From Ectocarpus siliculosus (taxonomy: Eukaryota; Sar; Phaeophyceae; Ectocarpales; Ectocarpaceae), in assembly GCA_000310025.1 (NCBI GenBank), contig FN649727.1:7321928-7385927 (forward strand): a stretch of DNA of 64,000 nt. Reading direction: 5' to 3'. Every line of letters starts with the position of its first letter. Positions within the stretch are counted from its first letter, which is position 1. This document shows positions 27,147-41,000 of this stretch, piece after piece. Made by a program: the position numbers and the translations under genes. The notes beneath the pieces are model-generated. The model worked only from the letters and a program-made list of their open reading frames with translations. It had not been told where the DNA came from and searched no databases.

Positions 27147-29778
27147 ATGGCCGAGAACAAGACCCCCGAGTTTGAGCCTCCCCAGGTTAGTGGAAGGGGA
27201 GTCGTGTGGTTTCCATCTATTGTTGGTCTTGGTGTAGGAATCTTGATTCGTGTGGTAAGCAAGGGAGGACACCATACCAATTTTTGGTTCACATCCCAGA
27301 GGCAGCCGGCATGCAGCTGGCAAGAGAGCCCTCGTACTGCTATGGATGCGCTCGTACGAAAGGTGGTTGCGTCAAGACTATGCTGGTCTTGCCTCTGTGG
27401 CCTTCTCAGGTCACAGGGAATCGCGTCTACGGTAGGACAAAGTTCTTCTTGGTGGCAGGGGGGCGAGCGTTCAAACCCTTCAAGTTTTTTAGAAAGTTTC
27501 TTGAAATTCAAACTGCGGTGCGTGCTTTTGTTGGAGCTCGTGCTGGCGGTGGCGGTAGATTATCTGATCTACAGCAGCAGCATGGCCACGTAAAACAAGG
27601 AGGAGAACAGCGTTACCCTCTACCATGGTTTAACGATTGGACCAGTAGCCTAGTCGTGAAGGCACAAGGAGCAGTACCGTTGAGGAAGCTCTTTGCTCTA
27701 TCGGTGATGTGGTTTTCCCTTGTCCCGCCGAACACTTCGCGGGATGTGTGATACAGAGTTATTAATTTTTTTTTTTTTTCGAAATATGACCCAACGAAAC
27801 CATCTCTATCTGAGTCTAAGATCGATTAATAGCAATGAATCCATAGCGTCAGCGAAGGCTACCTGTATTTCCACGATTTCCCGAGCAGCACACAACGGTA
27901 TCCCCCCTGTGGGTAACAGGCTCAACAAGACAGTTTGGTAGCCATCTTGTGCATCTCTCTGTATGTTATTTTATATTTCCGCGCGTGAAACAAAAGAGAT
28001 TTTTATTCACGTGAGTTCTTCTCCTCAGAAATGCATAGCATCATAGTATGAGATCAAACAGTGGCAATACCTCCCACGAGGGTCGGTGTTGGTACTCCTC
28101 GTGAATAGGAAAGGGCAAATACATACAATGAGCGACACTCATTTCCTTAACTGTTCACGACCAGTTTGTCGGAGAACAACTGAGCAAAAATATCTGCTGG
28201 GTGCGTGGGTGGGTGGGTGGATCTCACCGAGCACGCTCGTATCCCTGTGTTCCTGTGGAAAAGGTTGGCATTTGGAGATTAAGAGGGAGCTCCTGACTCT
28301 CTCGAATGTTGCCTCTGTATTGCGTGGCAATCACTGCGAACAATTTTTCTTTTTCCATCTCTGTTCCTCCTACATAATACTTTGAAGTGTAGATTTTTTG
28401 TGCTACTGCTGCTAGTCCGAGCGATGGTGGAGCAGTTCGGCGCAGCCCACGGTTTTTTGTTGGTGGACGAGACGCACAACGACAACGCGCGCATGTGCAC
28501 ACTCCCCCACCCCCCACCACATTGCCTTGTTTGATTTTCGCGTCCCACCTTGCCTGATGATGACGCCCTTTCTTTTTTGCACCTGTGCTCCTGTTATAGG
28601 CGTGCGTGCAACGAGTCATCAAGTCGGTGCTCCCTGACAACGTTCAGATCGGCAAGGATGCCAAAGCAGCCTTCTCGCGCAGTGCGGGTATCTTCATCAT
28701 GTGAGTGAATCATGCATGTGGCTGGGACTGCTGGCGAGATTATGTTTTTACGATTATGTCGCGCGCCGTTCGCTAATCCGTTTTTGCCGTTTGCCATCTA
28801 CAGCAGGAGTGACTTCGTGACCACCGTCCGAATTCATGGAACAGATTTCGTGTTTCTGTCGTCCACTCCCGTGTTCCAGAGTGTTTATCGAGAAACTAAT
28901 TGGGTCTGTTTCGATGTACGAAATGTTGGTGAACAGGTACCTGACGGCATGTGCGAATGACTTTTGCCGAGAAGCGAAGCGTCAGACTATCAGCGCCCAG
29001 GACGTCATGCAGGCCATCAAGGAGTTGGAGTTTGGAGAGCTAGAGGAGCCGCTCAAAGAGTACCTTGATCAGGTAAACTTATGCTATGATGGATTGAGTT
29101 TGAATTTGTACAACTTCATACCGGTCTGTTTCGTTGCAGTATAGGTAACGGCTGCTTTCATGGACGACATCAAATTCCGCGTGGTCGCGTCATGTGGGGG
29201 TGTGTCCAAGGATGCCCTGTCTCCTTTCAGTCACACACCCTTTCCCCCATATGCTTGCGCTGCTGGCGTGCACGATTTCCTGTCCTCCCTACCCGTTGCT
29301 GAAACAAAAGTACCGTCGTGAGGCCAGCGCTAAGAAACAGAGCAAGGCCGCAATGGGGGCTGCAGGGCCTGCCGCAGCAAAGAAGGGGGAGGCAGGCGGC
29401 GACATGATGGAGGAGCCAGAAGCCGATGATGGGGAAACGGACGGCGCTGGCGCTGGCGCTGGCGATGACGCACAAGGTGGTAGAGACAGGGTAGTTAACG
29501 CTGCTGGTAGTGCTGATGCCCATCGACAACAACAATCAGGAGCCGTGCCGGGCGGTGGTGAGGCGGGAGCTATTGCGACTCCGACGGGCATGAACGTTGA
29601 GCGGCAGGAACCGCCATCCGGTTTGCAGCAGCAACAGAGGCCGCCACCACAGCAGCCCCCCGCGGCGTCCGCGGGCCTGGCTCCAATGGACGAGGACGGG
29701 GGTAGCCATGCAGCACCGGCACCAGCACCGGCCGTACCTGCTGCCGCTGGTTCGGGCGAGGGTGGCGTTGTAGGGTAG
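27147..29778 (+). CDS. POLE3: DNA polymerase epsilon subunit 3 (histone fold)
   Basis: The small histone-fold subunit (Dpb4/POLE3) of DNA polymerase epsilon, also found in CHRAC-type remodellers in other eukaryotes. Exons 27147-27185, 28600-28700, 28937-29072 and 29311-29778 join in phase (744 nt, 247 aa). The fold runs over about residues 14-95: VIKSVLPDNVQIGKDA, AFSRSAGIFI, YLTACANDFCREAKRQTI, SAQDVMQAIKELEF, then PLKEYLDQYRREASAKK at the exon 3/4 junction, all typical of the family. The C-terminal 140 residues are an Ala/Gly/Pro/Gln-rich tail with an acidic patch; family tails are usually shorter and Glu-rich. The ATG is chosen because MAENKTPEFEPPQ precedes a good GT donor and matches the usual short N-terminus. 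The first intron is about 1.4 kb. Confidence 0.95.
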
Positions 29779-30481: not shown

Positions 30482-33400
30482 CTAGGGACTCCCGTGTTTT
30501 GTGCCGAACCACGTGTTCACGAACCCGAGATCAAGCTCTACCCTTGCCGACCGAACTACCCACATATGCCCAGCCGGGCAGGAGCGCTTCTGCGATGACC
30601 CTACGACATCGTTCTCATCACGTTCGGTCGGTGACTCCACCAACGCCAGTTCGACGATGACCCTGCCCACCCCCGACTCCGTCACGATGCCACGCCGCCG
30701 CTCCTCCCGAAGTTCCCTGCGTGCCATGTCAATGGTATCGTCGTCGTCCTCCTCCCTCGAACTGCCCCCGGGGTTAGGTGCCGATCCCTCAGCTGGACAG
30801 GCTGCGAACACGATGGGTAATGTAAAGGCCCAGATAGAGGCGCCGTCGGGGTCGTAGAGAGTGAAATCCGCCAGTAGCACGTCCGCCACAGTGCCTGACA
30901 GACCGCCTGGCGTGTAATAGGGCACCCCGGGGCCAGAGCTGAGTGTCCGATCCGGGTCAGACACGGCCGCCGCACCACCACCGAAACTTGCAGCATTGTT
31001 TGCGCCAGGGTGCAAAATATCGATACGAACCACTGCAGCTCCGGGGTCATCGCCCACGGGAGATTGCTGAAGCTGGGGCGCCACGTTGCGCGGCGGGCAG
31101 ACACGACCATCCACAGCGGTCGATGCCTTCTCCCATAAGGGAACTCCCGCCGTCCTCAGGCCGAGCGCAGTCGCAAAGCCTTCGAGGCCGTGCCCAGGGC
31201 CGGCCGAGTCGTCGCCGAGATACCGGCCACGGGTACTGCTGCCGCCGCTAGGAACATTCCTCTCTGTCGCCCTCCTTGGACCATGGGTTGCAACGTCAAG
31301 CAGCAACTCATGAGGGAAGTGAACCGTCAAAAAAGCAACCCCGCCATCATCTGTGCCGGAGTCCCGTTGACCACCGTGGCTGCCGGATGGAAGCACTCCG
31401 AGCAGGGCACAGCCGCGCCGCACGGGAGAAGAGGGAGTGGTTCTCGTGGTACAGGTATGACCACCGCCTCTTTCGCTGCTGCTCGAGCTGCTGCTGCTGC
31501 TCCCCGTAATGTCGTACAGTACAATAGCGTTATCAACGCTCTTTCCGAGCGCTCGGGCCGGTGAGAGAACAGGCCGTTCGTCGATTCGGGCCACAACAAT
31601 CCGTGGGAGCAAGGTGGCCTCCTTGCCGGGCCAGGAAAGAGCCACACACATCGATCGAAGGTCCTTCACGGTCTCAAGGCTCGTGGGTACGTCAATTTTC
31701 GCGGAGCTGCTCAGAGAGAAGGTCCTGACACCGTTGTGGTTGACAGACGGCTCGCTCACAATGTTAGGTCGAGAGACCCATGCCCCTGTCTTTGCGCCTG
31801 TTGTCTGCACAACACTAACTGACTTGCCGTTAATTGTCACCGAAATGTCCCCACGCATGGCGACCACCGAGACGCGCAGGTTGTAGATGACTCCGACTCT
31901 CCTCTTTACGGTTGCCACCTTCTTGGCAATCTTGGCAGCGTGCATAGACGAGGCGATGGATACAGCAATCGCGAAGAGAACCTTAGGGTGCACGTGTGCT
32001 GCTGCTTTTTCTGGGTAAATTTCGCTTTCTCCACCTGCGGGAAGGACACCCTTGCTCCTATTCTTCAGACCCTCTGGGAGCCGCGCGTACAGTTCACCCC
32101 AGAGATACTCGTTCATTGTGGCGGGGGCAATCGAGGTGCAGATCGCTTGCGCCTGTGTTGGATCGGCGGGCACATGACGGGGGGGGACAGGTTCGTGGGG
32201 AATACATTCATATAGGAGCGGCATGAGCTCCGGTCCTCAAAAGTGGAATCGAAAACATGCACACAAAATACCTGGGATAATCGGGAACTTTCCAGTGATA
32301 TCTCGATCACGACGTGGGGGCAATTAACTCTGTTGAACACGTTTTCTATATTGCACTTTCTTTGTCTGAGGAACCTACTCTCTCACCGTGCACAGCTCAG
32401 TGGGAGACAGAAACGAGAGCACGCCAGATGAGCCGCAGAGCACGTCGACCGGAACCCCTAAGAACCCTGCAAACGTAGAGCCACCGCCCACGGCACGACG
32501 TCGTGACGAACGGTGAACAGCGACGCGAAAACCACGCCCGGCGAGGGAGCCCTCTCGTGGTGCAACGTTCTTCCCCCCGCCGGCCGCAGACACAGGACCA
32601 CCGGAAACAAGATCACCTTTCATTGTCGTGGTAGAAGAGACTTTCTGGGAGCCGCTATCGGGCGTTCGCCGCGGTGGTGGCTCCGTTATACGCTCCCCGC
32701 CTCCACTTGCTGCCCCACCACCTTTCCCCCCCCCTACTACGCCAACAGCTGTTCCCTTGCCTGTTGATCGACGAGTAGACTTCTGTGTCGAAATCTCCGG
32801 GACTGTCGTTTTCCCTCTACCTGCTTGCGGGCCGCTTGCAGTGCTTCTCCCAGCTATGGGTTGCTTGCTTGTTCCCGCCGCCGACAGCAACGACTTGGAA
32901 GCGCCGCGCAGCCTTCGCATCAGCCCCGTAGGCCTCGACGACGAGCGTCTATCCTGATCATTTTGACGGCCCCCACTGTTTTCGCGAGAATTAGCACCTC
33001 TGCCAGTGCTTGCCCGTCGCTGAGCATCCTCTTTGGCTCCAGAATGGTTCTTAGCCCTGGGCTTCGGGCCCTTCATGTTGACAGTCAATGCAGCTACCCT
33101 TGCGGCCAGTGCTTCTACTTCGCCCCCGCCGTCCTCATGCTCATTCCTCGGACGGCTTTCCTCTTCCATCATGGTCGAAGTCGGTCTCGCGTAAGGTGAT
33201 TCTCCCTTGGGTTTGAGCGACTTTCCTGTGTTCGACAGCAGGTCGTGTATCTCGTACGTGCACAACTTTTTCTCCGGTGCGTTTACCTTGAATATGCCGA
33301 TGCAGCAGTGTGGAGTGGGTACTTTCCTCCCTGCCATCGCTCTTGTGCCCTCCCTGTGCCCTGGTGATGAGTACGCGCGATACGAAAATAAGCGTCATCA

Positions 33401-34318
33401 GTACATAAGCAAAGAGTGCCGACCCACCAACAACATGAAACCATTTGATGTGTAGAGCAACGTCCAAACGTATTCATGATGTCAAAGCCGACGATATACA
33501 CACATGTAGATACAGCGAGTTTCTGTAGTGCTTCCCAAAAATCAAATAAGCGTTCACGTGAGTAAACCACGGGTCAGAGCTCATAACTACGAGACGCGAG
33601 GCCATAACAAGGGTAGAGACTGCGAACAAGAACAATACGTGTTATCTGTGGTTTAGGGTTGGGGTCTAAGTGTACACTCACCCACAGCCAAGACGCGCGA
33701 GAAGCATTCACCGTCGCCATCGCTGCCTGCTCCTTGCTTCTCGCAGGCCTTGGCGGCTAGCCACGAGGCAGCACCACCAAATGAAGTTGGTGCAAGCGGA
33801 TCCCTAGGCACGATGGTGACCCCCGGAAAAGCTTCGATGATGTCTTCGTCGGTCAAAAGAGTGGCCTCGGCGCTTGAGTAGCCGATGTGCCTCAGCGCAG
33901 CGGTACACGAGCAGAGACCTGGCACCACTTGCAACGGGAGGTTCCCGAGGCTCTGCGAGATGCAGACAGCTGTCTGCACGGCTCGAACCAGTGGCGATGT
34001 GAACACGACGTCGAAGCTCCCCGGTTGTTTCTGCTGCCGGTTGAACGGCAGGCCTTTAAGATGTTGTCCAGCTCTGCACGCCTGCACATGACCGTAGCTT
34101 GTGAGGAATGGATCAAACCACCCGCCTGCCTTGCATCTGGGTGACTTTTCCCAGGCCCGTCTCTCTTCTCCCCGTACTTCGTCACATCGCTCGCCGTGTC
34201 GGACGTGCCACACCTCGTTGGTCCGCATGCTCGGTACGCTTCGAACTCCGATTCTGTGATCCGGTTTCGCTGGTGCTGCTGGTGCTGCTGGTGCTGCTGC
34301 GGTGGCTTCGGAAGACAT
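30482..34318 (-). CDS. Histidine phosphatase-F-box fusion protein
   Basis: Exons 34318-33682, 33360-32387 and 32152-30482 join in phase (3,282 nt, 1,093 aa). Residues about 36-250 are a histidine-phosphatase (PGAM-like, UBASH3-like) domain: VRHGER with catalytic His41, TSPLVRAVQTA, and VGHREGTR with the second His (about 214) created across the first intron. The place where relatives carry the acid Glu reads GLCSC. Then comes a Ser/Arg/Gly-rich basic linker (about 250-510). An F-box-like segment (about 512-565) spans the second intron: VLSFLSPTELCT, then AQAICTSIAPATMNEYLWGELYAR. The C-terminal 530 residues are unrecognised, with a Ser run and an acidic stretch. An F-box suggests an SCF adaptor. 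The phosphatase C-terminus and linker share one uninterrupted frame (33360-32387), hence one gene; alternatively a donor after IGIFK could give a shorter phosphatase-only transcript. I chose ATG 34318 over an upstream in-frame start. Confidence 0.7.
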
Positions 34319-35001: not shown

Positions 35002-38000
35002 ATGAGCGGGGACATGCTGCGGAAGAAACCAGCGTGTGTGCTGCGGAGGGACGCATGGCTCACCGAGTTGCGGCAGCTTGAAGACAGGGAATCGCTGCGC
35101 CCATGGCTACAGAAATATGGTGTGTGTAGATACAGTAGTGTGCAGCCTTGCGCCTGTCGACTAAATGTAGACAAGCAGAGAACATGCAGTAGCCTTTCTG
35201 TGTAGACTGACACTCAGCGGCAGAAACATGAGCCGAAGGCTCTGAATGTGGTACTTCAATAGTCCACTGAAGCATGTTTTTTTTTATGACACTTCTCTGT
35301 TCCTGAGACAACCTACTTGTGTGTGTCATCCATTGTACTACATATCTCTACAAACTAGAGCGAGTTTGGTCACAATACTGCTACACGGCAGTTAGTTGCA
35401 TGTCGTCGCAATGCAAGATCGTCGCATCTAAAGTTTGGGCTGTGGTCTAGAGAATGTACCTGGTGCACGGCAACCTCTATAGGCTTGCTGTTCGCTTCGT
35501 GTGCGTGCTTTTTCTCCAGGGTGCTTTGAGAAGAAGAACGCATGGTCCTCCTCAGGAGTAATACATCTTGATAATCTCAAGGAACTGGCTAAGAAATTTC
35601 GCCTGCACAAGTCAATCCCCAACTTTTTTCGAGACTACACGACCGAAGACTCGCTGGTCGCGGTGTTGAAGCGGTATGTTCGCAACAACGCGGCCTTCCT
35701 ATCGCTGGCTCCAGTTTCGGTCGCCAGAGCGCGACGCTCTGGTGGCAATCACCAGACCGAACCCGCAGTTGGTGCAGTTGATGCAGTCGGCGCAGGAGGC
35801 ACGGGTGGCGGCAGTGGCGGCTGTGGTAGCGACCCGCCACACGCCGCAGGACACACCTCATCGATGGACAGTGCATCCCTTCTTGACGGGGGGGCAAGCT
35901 TAGGGTCCGGTGGCATGACAAACGGGATGAACGACGATGCAAACAGCGCACAGCCGACAAAAACAACGATCTCGGGGGACTCCGAGCCTCGCAACCCTCA
36001 GCACCGCACCGCGTCGGGAAGCTTCGCAGGCATCTTGTCGAACGACGCTGTCCACCCCGGTGGAGCCGCTGCCGGCGGTGCATCAGCTGGTCAAGTCTCA
36101 AAAGCATCGGGACACAACAGCAGTACAGCCGCACTTGGTGCGCCACACGCAACTCGAAACCTTCGCGGCCGCCGACTCAGCGAGAGCAGCGCACCAAATC
36201 GACCACTAAAGCCGAAACGCCCTACCAAGGCAAGCAGAGCTAAGACTGCCGGTTGCTTTGGTCTGGGTGAAGGGCGACGAATTGTGACTCTGCCTCACAT
36301 AAGCATGTAACCGGTTGGGAATCTTGCGGCTTGTGTCGCGGCGTCAGTTGATTTCCTTGCAACAATACTTTTGGAAAGGACTAATGTTCGGGCGCACATG
36401 TTGTCATCTTCTAGTTTTGAAGTATACGGATATCGACGGTTTTCTGAATGGTGAGCTCCAAGAACAATCACTTCCTTCTCATTGCCCCTTGAACGATCGC
36501 TTCCAACCAAATCACTTGTTGCCGACGCAACCAGGCGAGCGTGTTGCTCAACCCGAACAACGGAGGGCGAAAGCTCTTCGGCTACTCGGACGCCGATCTC
36601 ACCACCGGCATGATACAGATGAGTCGGGTGGGACTGACCTCTCGCACGGTGGACAGGATGCAGATCATCTGCAACCGGAACAAGCGCCTCAGCACTTCGC
36701 CGGGCATGCGCCAAAACGTTTCAGGGGACGGCGGCCAGAGGGGTGGGGGCGGAGGGGGCGCGGGTACCAGCGGCGTGGCAGGGAGCGGTGAGGACCGGCA
36801 TGGGCCCATGGGTGGCGCCATGGGAGGCGCCCGTCAAGGCGCTCAGACCGCGCCGGGAGGGTCTGGGAGTGGACCTGGGTCCACAAAGCATGGTAGGAGC
36901 GCCCCCGGTGGGGTAGCGATGACTGACGACGGGGAAGGCGGAGAAGGCACGGAGGAGACTCGCGGTGGAGGGGGCTGGGGGGACGGCCGAGAGGGCAGTG
37001 GGCATCACGATGGCGTCATCGAGGATAACGATCATAGTCAGATCCTCAAGATCAAGGCCGCTCAAGCGCTGTTCAGGATGTCATTGGAGCCTGGAGGGGA
37101 GGTGAATTGGAACAGATAGTTCAGCCGGTTGCTGCAGAATCGGTCGGTAGTAGAGTGGCTCCCACAAAATAGTGAGGTGTGGAATCCGGAGCGACGCAAA
37201 GTTCCAACATAGTCAGTGAGGGTATAGATCGCGTCGTGTGGTTTCCCTAGAGACGACGAGGAAATCACACCTGTAGCGTGGGTCGGTCCATAGGAAAAAG
37301 TACGCGGAAGTGCACATGATTCCGAATGTTGATCCTACGTTGTTTATTTCATCCTGCGACAGAGATTCCCACGTTCCACGTCTGTCCCTCACGTACACGC
37401 TCAGACGAAGTTGGTGCAAGATGGCGTGGTGGTTGCTCTGATGAAGCTGATCAACGTTGAGAGCGTGCCGGCACACAGACTTGTTTCTGGTTGTCTTGCC
37501 AATCTCACAACAACCAGGGACGTCAGTTGGGAACTGATTCAAGCGAAAGGCCATCAGGTGCGGTTCAAATCAAAATCAGCACGCGCTGTATCAACTACGT
37601 TTGTGATCGGAGCGAGAAAGGCAAAGGATGAGCACTCAGCCCGAAGGGGGTCCACCCTCAGTTGCAGAATGCATACGGAAACTCCACGTTCGTGCTTGGT
37701 TAAGAAAAGACCTACACTCGTAGCAAAATCAAGCTAAGCTCTTCTGTGTACTACATACAACCGAAACAAGTGTTCTACCTCTCTGCGCAGTCAGCATTGT
37801 CGAATCCGTCCCTCTCAACCCCACGCTTGGCAGGTACTCGCTTTCTTGGTGAACGGGGTGAAGACGCGGGACCCCATCACCTTATCAAACGTTGCGACAG
37901 CCTTGTGCCGTTGCACCTATGAGGCGCGGAACCACGAGCGCCTCGTCACGGAGTTCAACGCGGCGCAGGCGCTGTGCTACATCATGCAGCGGCACACCAC

Positions 38001-41000
38001 TAACCTCAAGATTATCGGCGCCAAGGGGATGCTCAACATGTGCGGGCTGTCCTCGACCTTGCCCTCGCTGGCTGCGAAGCTGGACGTGTGAGTGGTGGAT
38101 GCAAACAGCGTTAATTGACGCAGGTCAAGAGAAACCTGGTCGTTCTCCTGCACGCTCTTTTGCTTCACTCATTCGAGGCCAAAAATTGTTGAATGTTTTC
38201 GTGGTTTCTCTCGCCACGTCTCTGTTCATTCAAGTCAAGGGTCAGATTGGTTGACCGGGATACCCCTTGTCCGCAACGTGACTTCCCCGTGCAGGTACAT
38301 GTTGACGCTTTGCTCTGCTATGGAGGACCTTGCCAGGAACGAGTCAGAAGCCGTACAGGTACAGAGTGGGGAGGGGAGGCAAGGTTACCACGAGGAATGT
38401 GGAATGAAGCAACCCTGAGAACCCCATCGGCGACACTTAATGTGGCATGAACTCAAGGAGCTACCTAGCCATAGAACACATGACAACAAACAACATTGAG
38501 TGCCTATTTGGCTCAAAACCAAACACGCCTAACGGCAATATTGTGGCCATGGTGTTGTGCGGTAAACCATGTCATGAGAAACCATATAATTCTCAAACAT
38601 CACGCGAGCGAAGCTTTGCTCACCCGATGACGCACGAAAGTTCAGGTAATCATTTTGAGTCGGAGACGCTGAGCAGAACTTCCATCCCCTCGCCGCCGTA
38701 CACTCTTCTTGTGAAAATGCCCGCTTTTCTTCAGACGTTTGTGTGTCGCGCTATTCAGGGACTCACATCGGTACCGACATGTTTGTCTCGAATTCCTGAC
38801 TCCGGCATTGTGGACCTGCTGTTGCCCTTGGTAAGTCAAGACGCACGTGTTTCTCACCGGCACACACGCGGATGATGTTTCGATTGAGAGAGGAGGTGGC
38901 ACCTTTGAAGGATCTTGCCATCTTAAGTGGTAGTGCGTACGTTCGCCGTTCGCGACACATAAGGCAGCCTTCGACGGCGTTTACATTCCCTTGGAATGCA
39001 TCCTATAAAGACTCCATTTGATCTTGATTTCACTCAAAGGAAGGACGTGAGGGGTCTCAAACGTTGCGGTTACACCGTGTTGCCGTATTGGGTGTGTGCT
39101 TGAAAGCAGACACGAAACATGATGACATGATCCCCCTGTGGCTTGGAGGTAGGCGGTGTTCGACAAGAGTTGTGTGTGTGTGTGAATGTGTGTTCATCCA
39201 TCGTCGGACAGAGTTTCGTCCCGGCTCTTGATATCTTCAAAAGAGCTGCTTTCCTTAAAGGCAAAAGAGAGCGCTGTTCTTGTGCTTAAAGGAAGAGAGG
39301 AACCCTCAGGACATTGTACGACTCTTGGAAGCATGCAATACAAGATTCCCTTCCGTTTTTTGCAGGTCAAGCTGAACTTGAAACGACCGGGGAATCTAGC
39401 CTACCTAGCTTCCGCATCGGTCAATTTGGCGGATCTGAAGAGCGCTCACGCTCAGCTGGTGAAGCAGAAGGATATCGTGACCGTGCTTTGCTTGCTCTCC
39501 GAACAGCCGAAGCTCGTCGAGGTGAGCTGGGCTATTAATTCAGGTCTGACGGTATGTAAAGAGAGTTTGTTCTTGGGGGAAGGGTAGCCTCGGTGCCGAT
39601 GAATGATTGTAGGCGCGCTGCGAACAAAACAAATTCTAGTTACCAACAGTCTTCCCCTGGAAATTTTCTCGGGATATAGACCTAGGCCGCTGTTTATTGT
39701 TCAGTGATCATGGTTAGTGAGAGGGAGCGAGAAGGTAACTATGCTCATGGTTGCGGTTTGCTTGAGTTGCACGTCTAATCGATACTTGAAACCAGCTGCT
39801 TACCTACGTTCTGGACTTGTAGCTTTGCTCTGTTGGGCATCATTGTAGAATCGATTTCGCATTGATTCACAGCCACTGTGTGGAGCTAATCGAAGAGAGA
39901 CGCAAGACAAGCGGGCAGACCTGGAGTGTGTACGGTGGAGAAGATCGGCTGCTTGCAATCCGGGGTACCAATAATTCGTGCTCTTTCGTAGTCGGCAACG
40001 AAACAATTAAACCGCCGATTCGTTTTTCGTCGGGTCGCTGAAATGATTTGCAGGACTCCATTCAAACATGAAACGTGAGCAAGTACGTGTACCTTGTCAC
40101 AACGTGTATGGTGGCGCAACCGTCAATCCGATAACTCGACGCATGCGCAAGCCAGCACATAGTATTTACCTGCCTTTTGCCGTTGTTCGTGACTACCGCA
40201 GAGTTGCTGCGTGGCAGCTGCGTGCCTCAGCCGGACTCGAGACCTGGAGACCCACTTGGCACCCTTGGCCACAACTTTGGTCGAGATTAACCTCCCCAAT
40301 GAAGCCAGTGTGGATTGCGTCGCATTCTTTTTGCAGGTACGGCAAGGCGGTGTGTTGTGAGCCATTGAAACCTCAATATTGTGCTCAAGCCCCGGAGCTC
40401 TTCAGTTTGAGGGGCAAGCTCGCAGGGTGGATACAACCTGCAAGCGTCGGTAAACAAATGATCTGACGAAATTATTGTAAATCAAACAAGAGTACGCCCC
40501 TCGCCACATTTCTATCTCGCTGGAATATTTATTGTTGTTTCAACTGAATCATCGTGGTCGGCACTGTTCTTGCGCGGGCTTTGGTTGCTCCACAACTTCT
40601 AATTCCTGACTGGCAAGTTGTGCATCACTTCCAAACGATGCTGGTCTGCAGCGTATGCGATGCTCTGGCGCAACGATACCACGTCCGCCCCACTCCGACC
40701 ACTCTTGACCCTGACGAAAGGAGTGTCATTCTTCGTCAACCAAGTTACACGAATCATGCCCCTCTATTGGTCTTGTCCCGGGCTGTTCATCCCAAGATTT
40801 GGGGCTGCCTCTCTATACGTATTTCGTGTTGCCTCGTGCATCACTACAACTCTGTTTGCCCCCCTCCCCCCGCCTTGTCTGTTCACTTCGACTTGGTGTA
40901 ACGGCGGTGTCTGCAGAATGTCAGCCGGGCTCACCCAGTGAGCGAGTCGTCTGTGACATCGTGGCTGGCGCTTGAGGCCGATTCTGCCTCACCAGACGGC

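Follow-up and report, generated by a model that had tools for sequence, protein, structure and literature searches.

A predicted gene of Ectocarpus siliculosus joining a histidine phosphatase to an F-box-like motif

The stretch of DNA analyzed here, called the window, is 64,000 nucleotides long and corresponds to positions 7,321,928 to 7,385,927 of contig FN649727.1 in the Ectocarpus siliculosus assembly GCA_000310025.1. Coordinates are those of the window unless the contig is named, and genome-wide searches covered 189 Mb in 492 contigs. The minus strand of the window carries a predicted gene of three exons with GT-AG borders, which encode 1,093 residues followed by a stop. The exon lengths of 637, 974, and 1,671 nt add up to 3,282 nt, so the total of 1,094 codons given in the original prediction is borne out when the stop is included. 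Exon 1 (33682 to 34318) contains the start codon, a low-complexity Ala/Pro leader, and most of a histidine phosphatase with its RHG motif, and it ends after residue 212 and the first base of codon 213. Exon 2 (32387 to 33360) opens on the second catalytic His (GHREG) and continues through the end of the phosphatase and a basic low-complexity linker into the first part of an F-box-like motif. The remainder of this motif begins exon 3 (30482 to 32152), where it is followed by about 530 residues without a recognized domain and then the stop. Intron 1 (33361 to 33681, 321 nt, GTGAGT...CAG) and intron 2 (32153 to 32386, 234 nt, GTGAGA...CAG), the second of which splits the F-box-like motif, both have stops in all three frames, with G+C contents of 0.45 and 0.49, respectively.

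Some further features of the window were recorded. The Ala/Pro leader of the phosphatase includes a perfect 9-nt repeat of 3.4 copies (34269 to 34299). The window contains 100 N, and thus an assembly gap or a masked stretch, while the gene itself is free of N. No Rfam family scored above its gathering score in the window. On the plus strand, an open frame at 28821 to 29144, which by eye we took to resemble a subunit of the DNA polymerase epsilon or NF-Y type, has a 56-residue piece with a weak match to the CBF/NF-Y histone fold (19.3 bits; cutoff, 21.4) as well as to six other families, all below cutoff. Another plus-strand open frame, at 37738 to 38091, seemed by eye to hold armadillo-type repeats and gave no Pfam match at E values up to 1.

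The N-terminal domain is a predicted branch-1 histidine phosphatase according to both its profile match and its motifs. Pfam His_Phos_1 (PF00300) matches residues 39 to 135 (33914 to 34204, minus strand) with 35.2 to 38.6 bits, above the curated cutoff of 21.7. The motifs RHGER at residue 40, SPLVRAVQTA at residue 108, and GHREG at residue 213 supply R40, H41, R112, and H214, which we take to be the catalytic pocket positions of a branch-1 enzyme; the first His (H41) is encoded in exon 1 and the second (H214) at the opening of exon 2. No general-acid residue was recognized for the enzyme. Like the phosphoglycerate mutases, the protein matches the His_Phos_1 family above cutoff, and it weakly resembles bisphosphoglycerate mutases in the PDB (best E values, 0.0068 and 0.0085). 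Unlike in those enzymes, however, the match covers only part of the domain, residues 39 to 135 in Pfam and about 54 to 126 in the PDB. All 13 NCBIfam models listed were under cutoff, the best with 26.5 against 316 bits, and the protein is therefore not filed as a mutase. An AlphaFold run on exon 1 together with exon 1 of the paralogue described below was unusable (pLDDT of 36.6).

Downstream of the phosphatase, the frame stays open to the end of exon 2 at residue 537, within the F-box-like motif. It was this uninterrupted, in-phase passage from the second His through the basic linker that the original prediction had described, and it was confirmed. The linker, with limits that we set at residues 256 to 505 (32483 to 33232, minus strand), is rich in Gly, Ser, and Arg and has 46 Lys and Arg residues and 20 Asp and Glu residues. 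Its 250 codons are without a stop, for which the chance at the composition of the linker is about 1e-4, whereas the other frames have 11 and 9 stops in the forward direction and 3, 5, and 7 on the opposite strand. A codon usage score trained on the flanking parts ranked the fusion frame best of the six overall, by only 0.03 per codon, and best in only two of five 50-codon windows. As this signal is slight, composition alone is no proof that the linker is coding.

The F-box-like motif is encoded on the minus strand by the end of exon 2 (residues 526 to 537, 32387 to 32422) and the start of exon 3 (residues 538 to 559, 32087 to 32152). Pfam F-box-like (PF12937) matches residues 526 to 559 with 18.0 bits (E value of 0.0025) in the whole protein, 19.6 bits (E value of 0.00077) in a piece of 270 residues, and 21.9 bits (E value of 1.5e-4) in a piece of 100 residues. 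At all three lengths the score is under the curated cutoff of 24.3, and profile positions 1 to 11 are unmatched, while the E values of 0.0025 to 1.5e-4 indicate an F-box-like match beyond chance. The match spans the junction of exons 2 and 3 and appears only when the two are spliced: the end of exon 2 alone, the start of exon 3 alone, and six of six shuffled sequences gave no match at E values up to 10, and two unspliced readings gave no Pfam match at E values up to 1. Among 14 prokaryote genomes run as controls, 3 gave weak matches to the same model, none of them above cutoff, and a 106-residue piece around the motif matched no PDB chain at E values up to 10. We regard the segment as probably an F-box, of subthreshold score. 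The original prediction of an F-box half thus holds insofar as there is a splice-dependent F-box-like match, but this match is weaker than the wording suggested; when the predicted protein was examined with domain HMMs, the check named at the time, His_Phos_1 was above cutoff, the F-box-like model was below it, and PF00646 (F-box) was not among the Pfam matches listed. The Skp1 family is present in the genome, with two matches above cutoff.

No domain was assigned to the C-terminal region of about 530 residues by Pfam, NCBIfam, or PHROGs. A Cu-oxidase match in this part was dropped, being below cutoff with E values of 0.11, 0.018, and 0.051. The genome search listed no second place matching exon 3, and an AlphaFold model of exon 3 alone was unusable (pLDDT of 33.7). 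In comparisons with viral contigs, exon 3 and exon 1 gave 9 and 20 pattern stretches, respectively, with no confirmed relative, and none was confirmed for exon 3 among phages either. The phosphatase pair likewise gave 34 stretches in prokaryote genome contigs, none confirmed, and among PHROGs there was no family for exon 3 and one, at an E value of 0.36, for the phosphatase. Since these collections consist of viruses and prokaryotes, absence from them says little about conservation in algae.

A second copy of the phosphatase was found outside the window on the same strand of FN649727.1, running from an ATG at 7394752 down to about 7392840; its ATG is 38.5 kb from that of the window gene (7356245). 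At the DNA level, the copies are 88.9% identical over exon 1 and the 27 bases preceding the ATG and 81.8% identical in the first part of exon 2, the donor and acceptor positions of intron 1 are shared, and the Arg and His residues of the phosphatase motifs are kept. There is a 9-nt gap in the Ala/Pro leader of this copy. The predicted protein has 349 residues and ends at a stop within the linker, and no F-box and no match to exon 3 were found at the locus, which we therefore predict to be a phosphatase-only copy. Homology continues past the paralogue stop to window position 32544 with 75% identity and gaps of 1 and 4 bases, and it is lost before the F-box. Length differences amount to 174 nt before the stop, which are in frame, and 154 nt containing the stop, which are out of frame. 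A GT-AG intron removing the paralogue stop was rejected by eye, as the frame is not kept.

This homology past the stop allowed the linker to be compared between the copies. The dN/dS ratio of the pair is 0.30 in exon 1, 0.63 in exon 2 as far as 33062, and 0.57 in 18 codons at 32875 to 32821. In the linker part at 32805 to 32544 (minus strand), read in the fusion frame over 83 ungapped codons with rounded counts, pS is 0.38 and pN is 0.20, giving a pN/pS ratio of 0.52 (Fisher P = 0.0023). The other two frames show no synonymous excess (Fisher P = 0.95 and 0.47) and have stops in both copies, and only 0.55% of 2,000 neutral simulations reached a pN/pS ratio as low as that of the linker. Differences at the three codon positions number 17, 18, and 30, which is marginal by chi-square test (P = 0.089), with a one-sided binomial P of 0.021 for third positions. 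The linker test is one pairwise comparison without an outgroup, covering 32805 to 32544, upstream of 32543 to 32387, intron 2, and exon 3. Because no frame other than that of the fusion shows the synonymous excess, translation of the linker in this frame probably preceded the duplication, and the paralogue was probably truncated later; after the copies diverged, one or both of them probably went on using the stretch as coding sequence for a large part of the time. This supports the fused frame at least to 32544.

The in-phase canonical introns, the splice-dependent F-box-like match, and the synonymous excess in part of the linker relative to the tandem paralogue together support a single predicted reading frame running through phosphatase, linker, and F-box-like motif, a prediction in which we have good confidence. 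It has to be weighed against an arrangement of two genes with intron 2 left unspliced. The phosphatase would then end with a long tail at the TAG at 32377 to 32375 (540 residues), and exon 3 would be part of another gene, without an F-box, that starts at an ATG inside the supposed intron, in a frame open from 32236. The unspliced frames are indeed open as this would need (33394 to 32375 for the exon 2 frame and 32236 to 30482 for the exon 3 frame), and the paralogue suggests that the phosphatase can exist on its own with a shorter tail. The F-box-like match would then, however, be a coincidence of the junction, at an E value of 1.5e-4 when spliced and none when unspliced; the two stretches examined hold only 9 GT and 9 AG; and the G+C content of intron 2 is below the average of about 0.60 in the coding parts. 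On this evidence, two separate genes appear unlikely, and of the two gene models the fusion has the better support.

The paralogue also bears on whether the fusion is old. Had the standalone phosphatase been the ancestral form, the window copy could recently have lost its stop and come to read through into an adjoining F-box gene, as the nearby phosphatase-only copy might suggest. Past the paralogue stop, the linker DNA of the two copies has diverged preferentially at sites that are synonymous when read in the fusion frame (a single comparison with no outgroup to polarize it), which argues against this scenario and makes it distinctly improbable. Somewhat harder to set aside, if still doubtful, is the idea that the fusion is real but its motif has decayed, or is a helical stretch resembling an F-box by chance, and does not bind Skp1; the protein would then be a phosphatase carrying a long extension for targeting. 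The subthreshold PF12937 score with its unmatched first 11 positions, the lack of a PDB match, and the weak hits of the model in prokaryote controls all fit such a protein, whereas the best E value and the failure of every shuffled sequence to match speak for a genuine motif.

The fusion appears to be a new combination of known parts, as far as the literature searched allows us to rate it. No fusion of an F-box with a histidine phosphatase or phosphoglycerate mutase was found in open-access literature, including that on Ectocarpus, brown algae, and stramenopiles, and the original statement that no such architecture had been described holds to the extent of that search; entries in protein databases may contain one. 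In the genome, 27 His_Phos_1 and 24 F-box-like matches (E values up to 1) included, by eye, no pair within 100 kb, in a search that F-boxes split by introns, that of the window among them, escape. The UBA domain of UBASH3 binds ubiquitin. UBASH3/TULA/STS proteins have a histidine phosphatase, a UBA domain, and an SH3 domain in one chain (PMC10253181), and they resemble the window protein in linking a histidine phosphatase to a ubiquitin-system domain. They differ in that their ubiquitin part is the UBA domain, while the window protein has an F-box-like adaptor motif after its phosphatase. With no Pfam match to UBA or SH3 listed at E values up to 10, the protein does not show the domain set of the UBASH3/TULA family, and the link of its phosphatase to Sts-2/UBASH3 structures in the PDB is not significant (best E value of 0.045). 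We would place this family as the nearest functional parallel. Like the F-box substrate receptors of SCF ligases, the window protein has a large C-terminal region behind an F-box-like motif; in contrast to them, its motif sits mid-chain after an enzyme domain, and its C terminus matches no known substrate-binding domain.

Taken together, the best explanation is a three-exon gene encoding a 1,093-residue protein of phosphatase, linker, F-box-like motif, and C-terminal region that is most likely an SCF substrate receptor; to this explanation as a whole we assign a probability of roughly 0.6. Production of a single transcript, binding to Skp1, catalysis, the client, and the order of events are what we infer. 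Within a ubiquitin ligase of the SCF type, the protein would serve as the substrate receptor, binding Skp1 through its F-box and holding a client through its C-terminal region, and the tethered phosphatase would act on the held client or on a partner of that client. We propose this SCF-coupled mechanism tentatively. More speculative still is a single-chain "phosphatase ligase", an SCF receptor that would dephosphorylate its client and pass it to the ubiquitin machinery, and that would predate the tandem duplication releasing the phosphatase-only version; we hold this to be improbable as a complete account. For many SCF receptors, phosphorylation of the client is the signal that is read. If the proposal is true, the erasing and the reading of a degradation signal would be united in one chain, and the tandem phosphatase-only copy would serve as a natural control for the contribution of the F-box half, making the idea testable in the organism itself.
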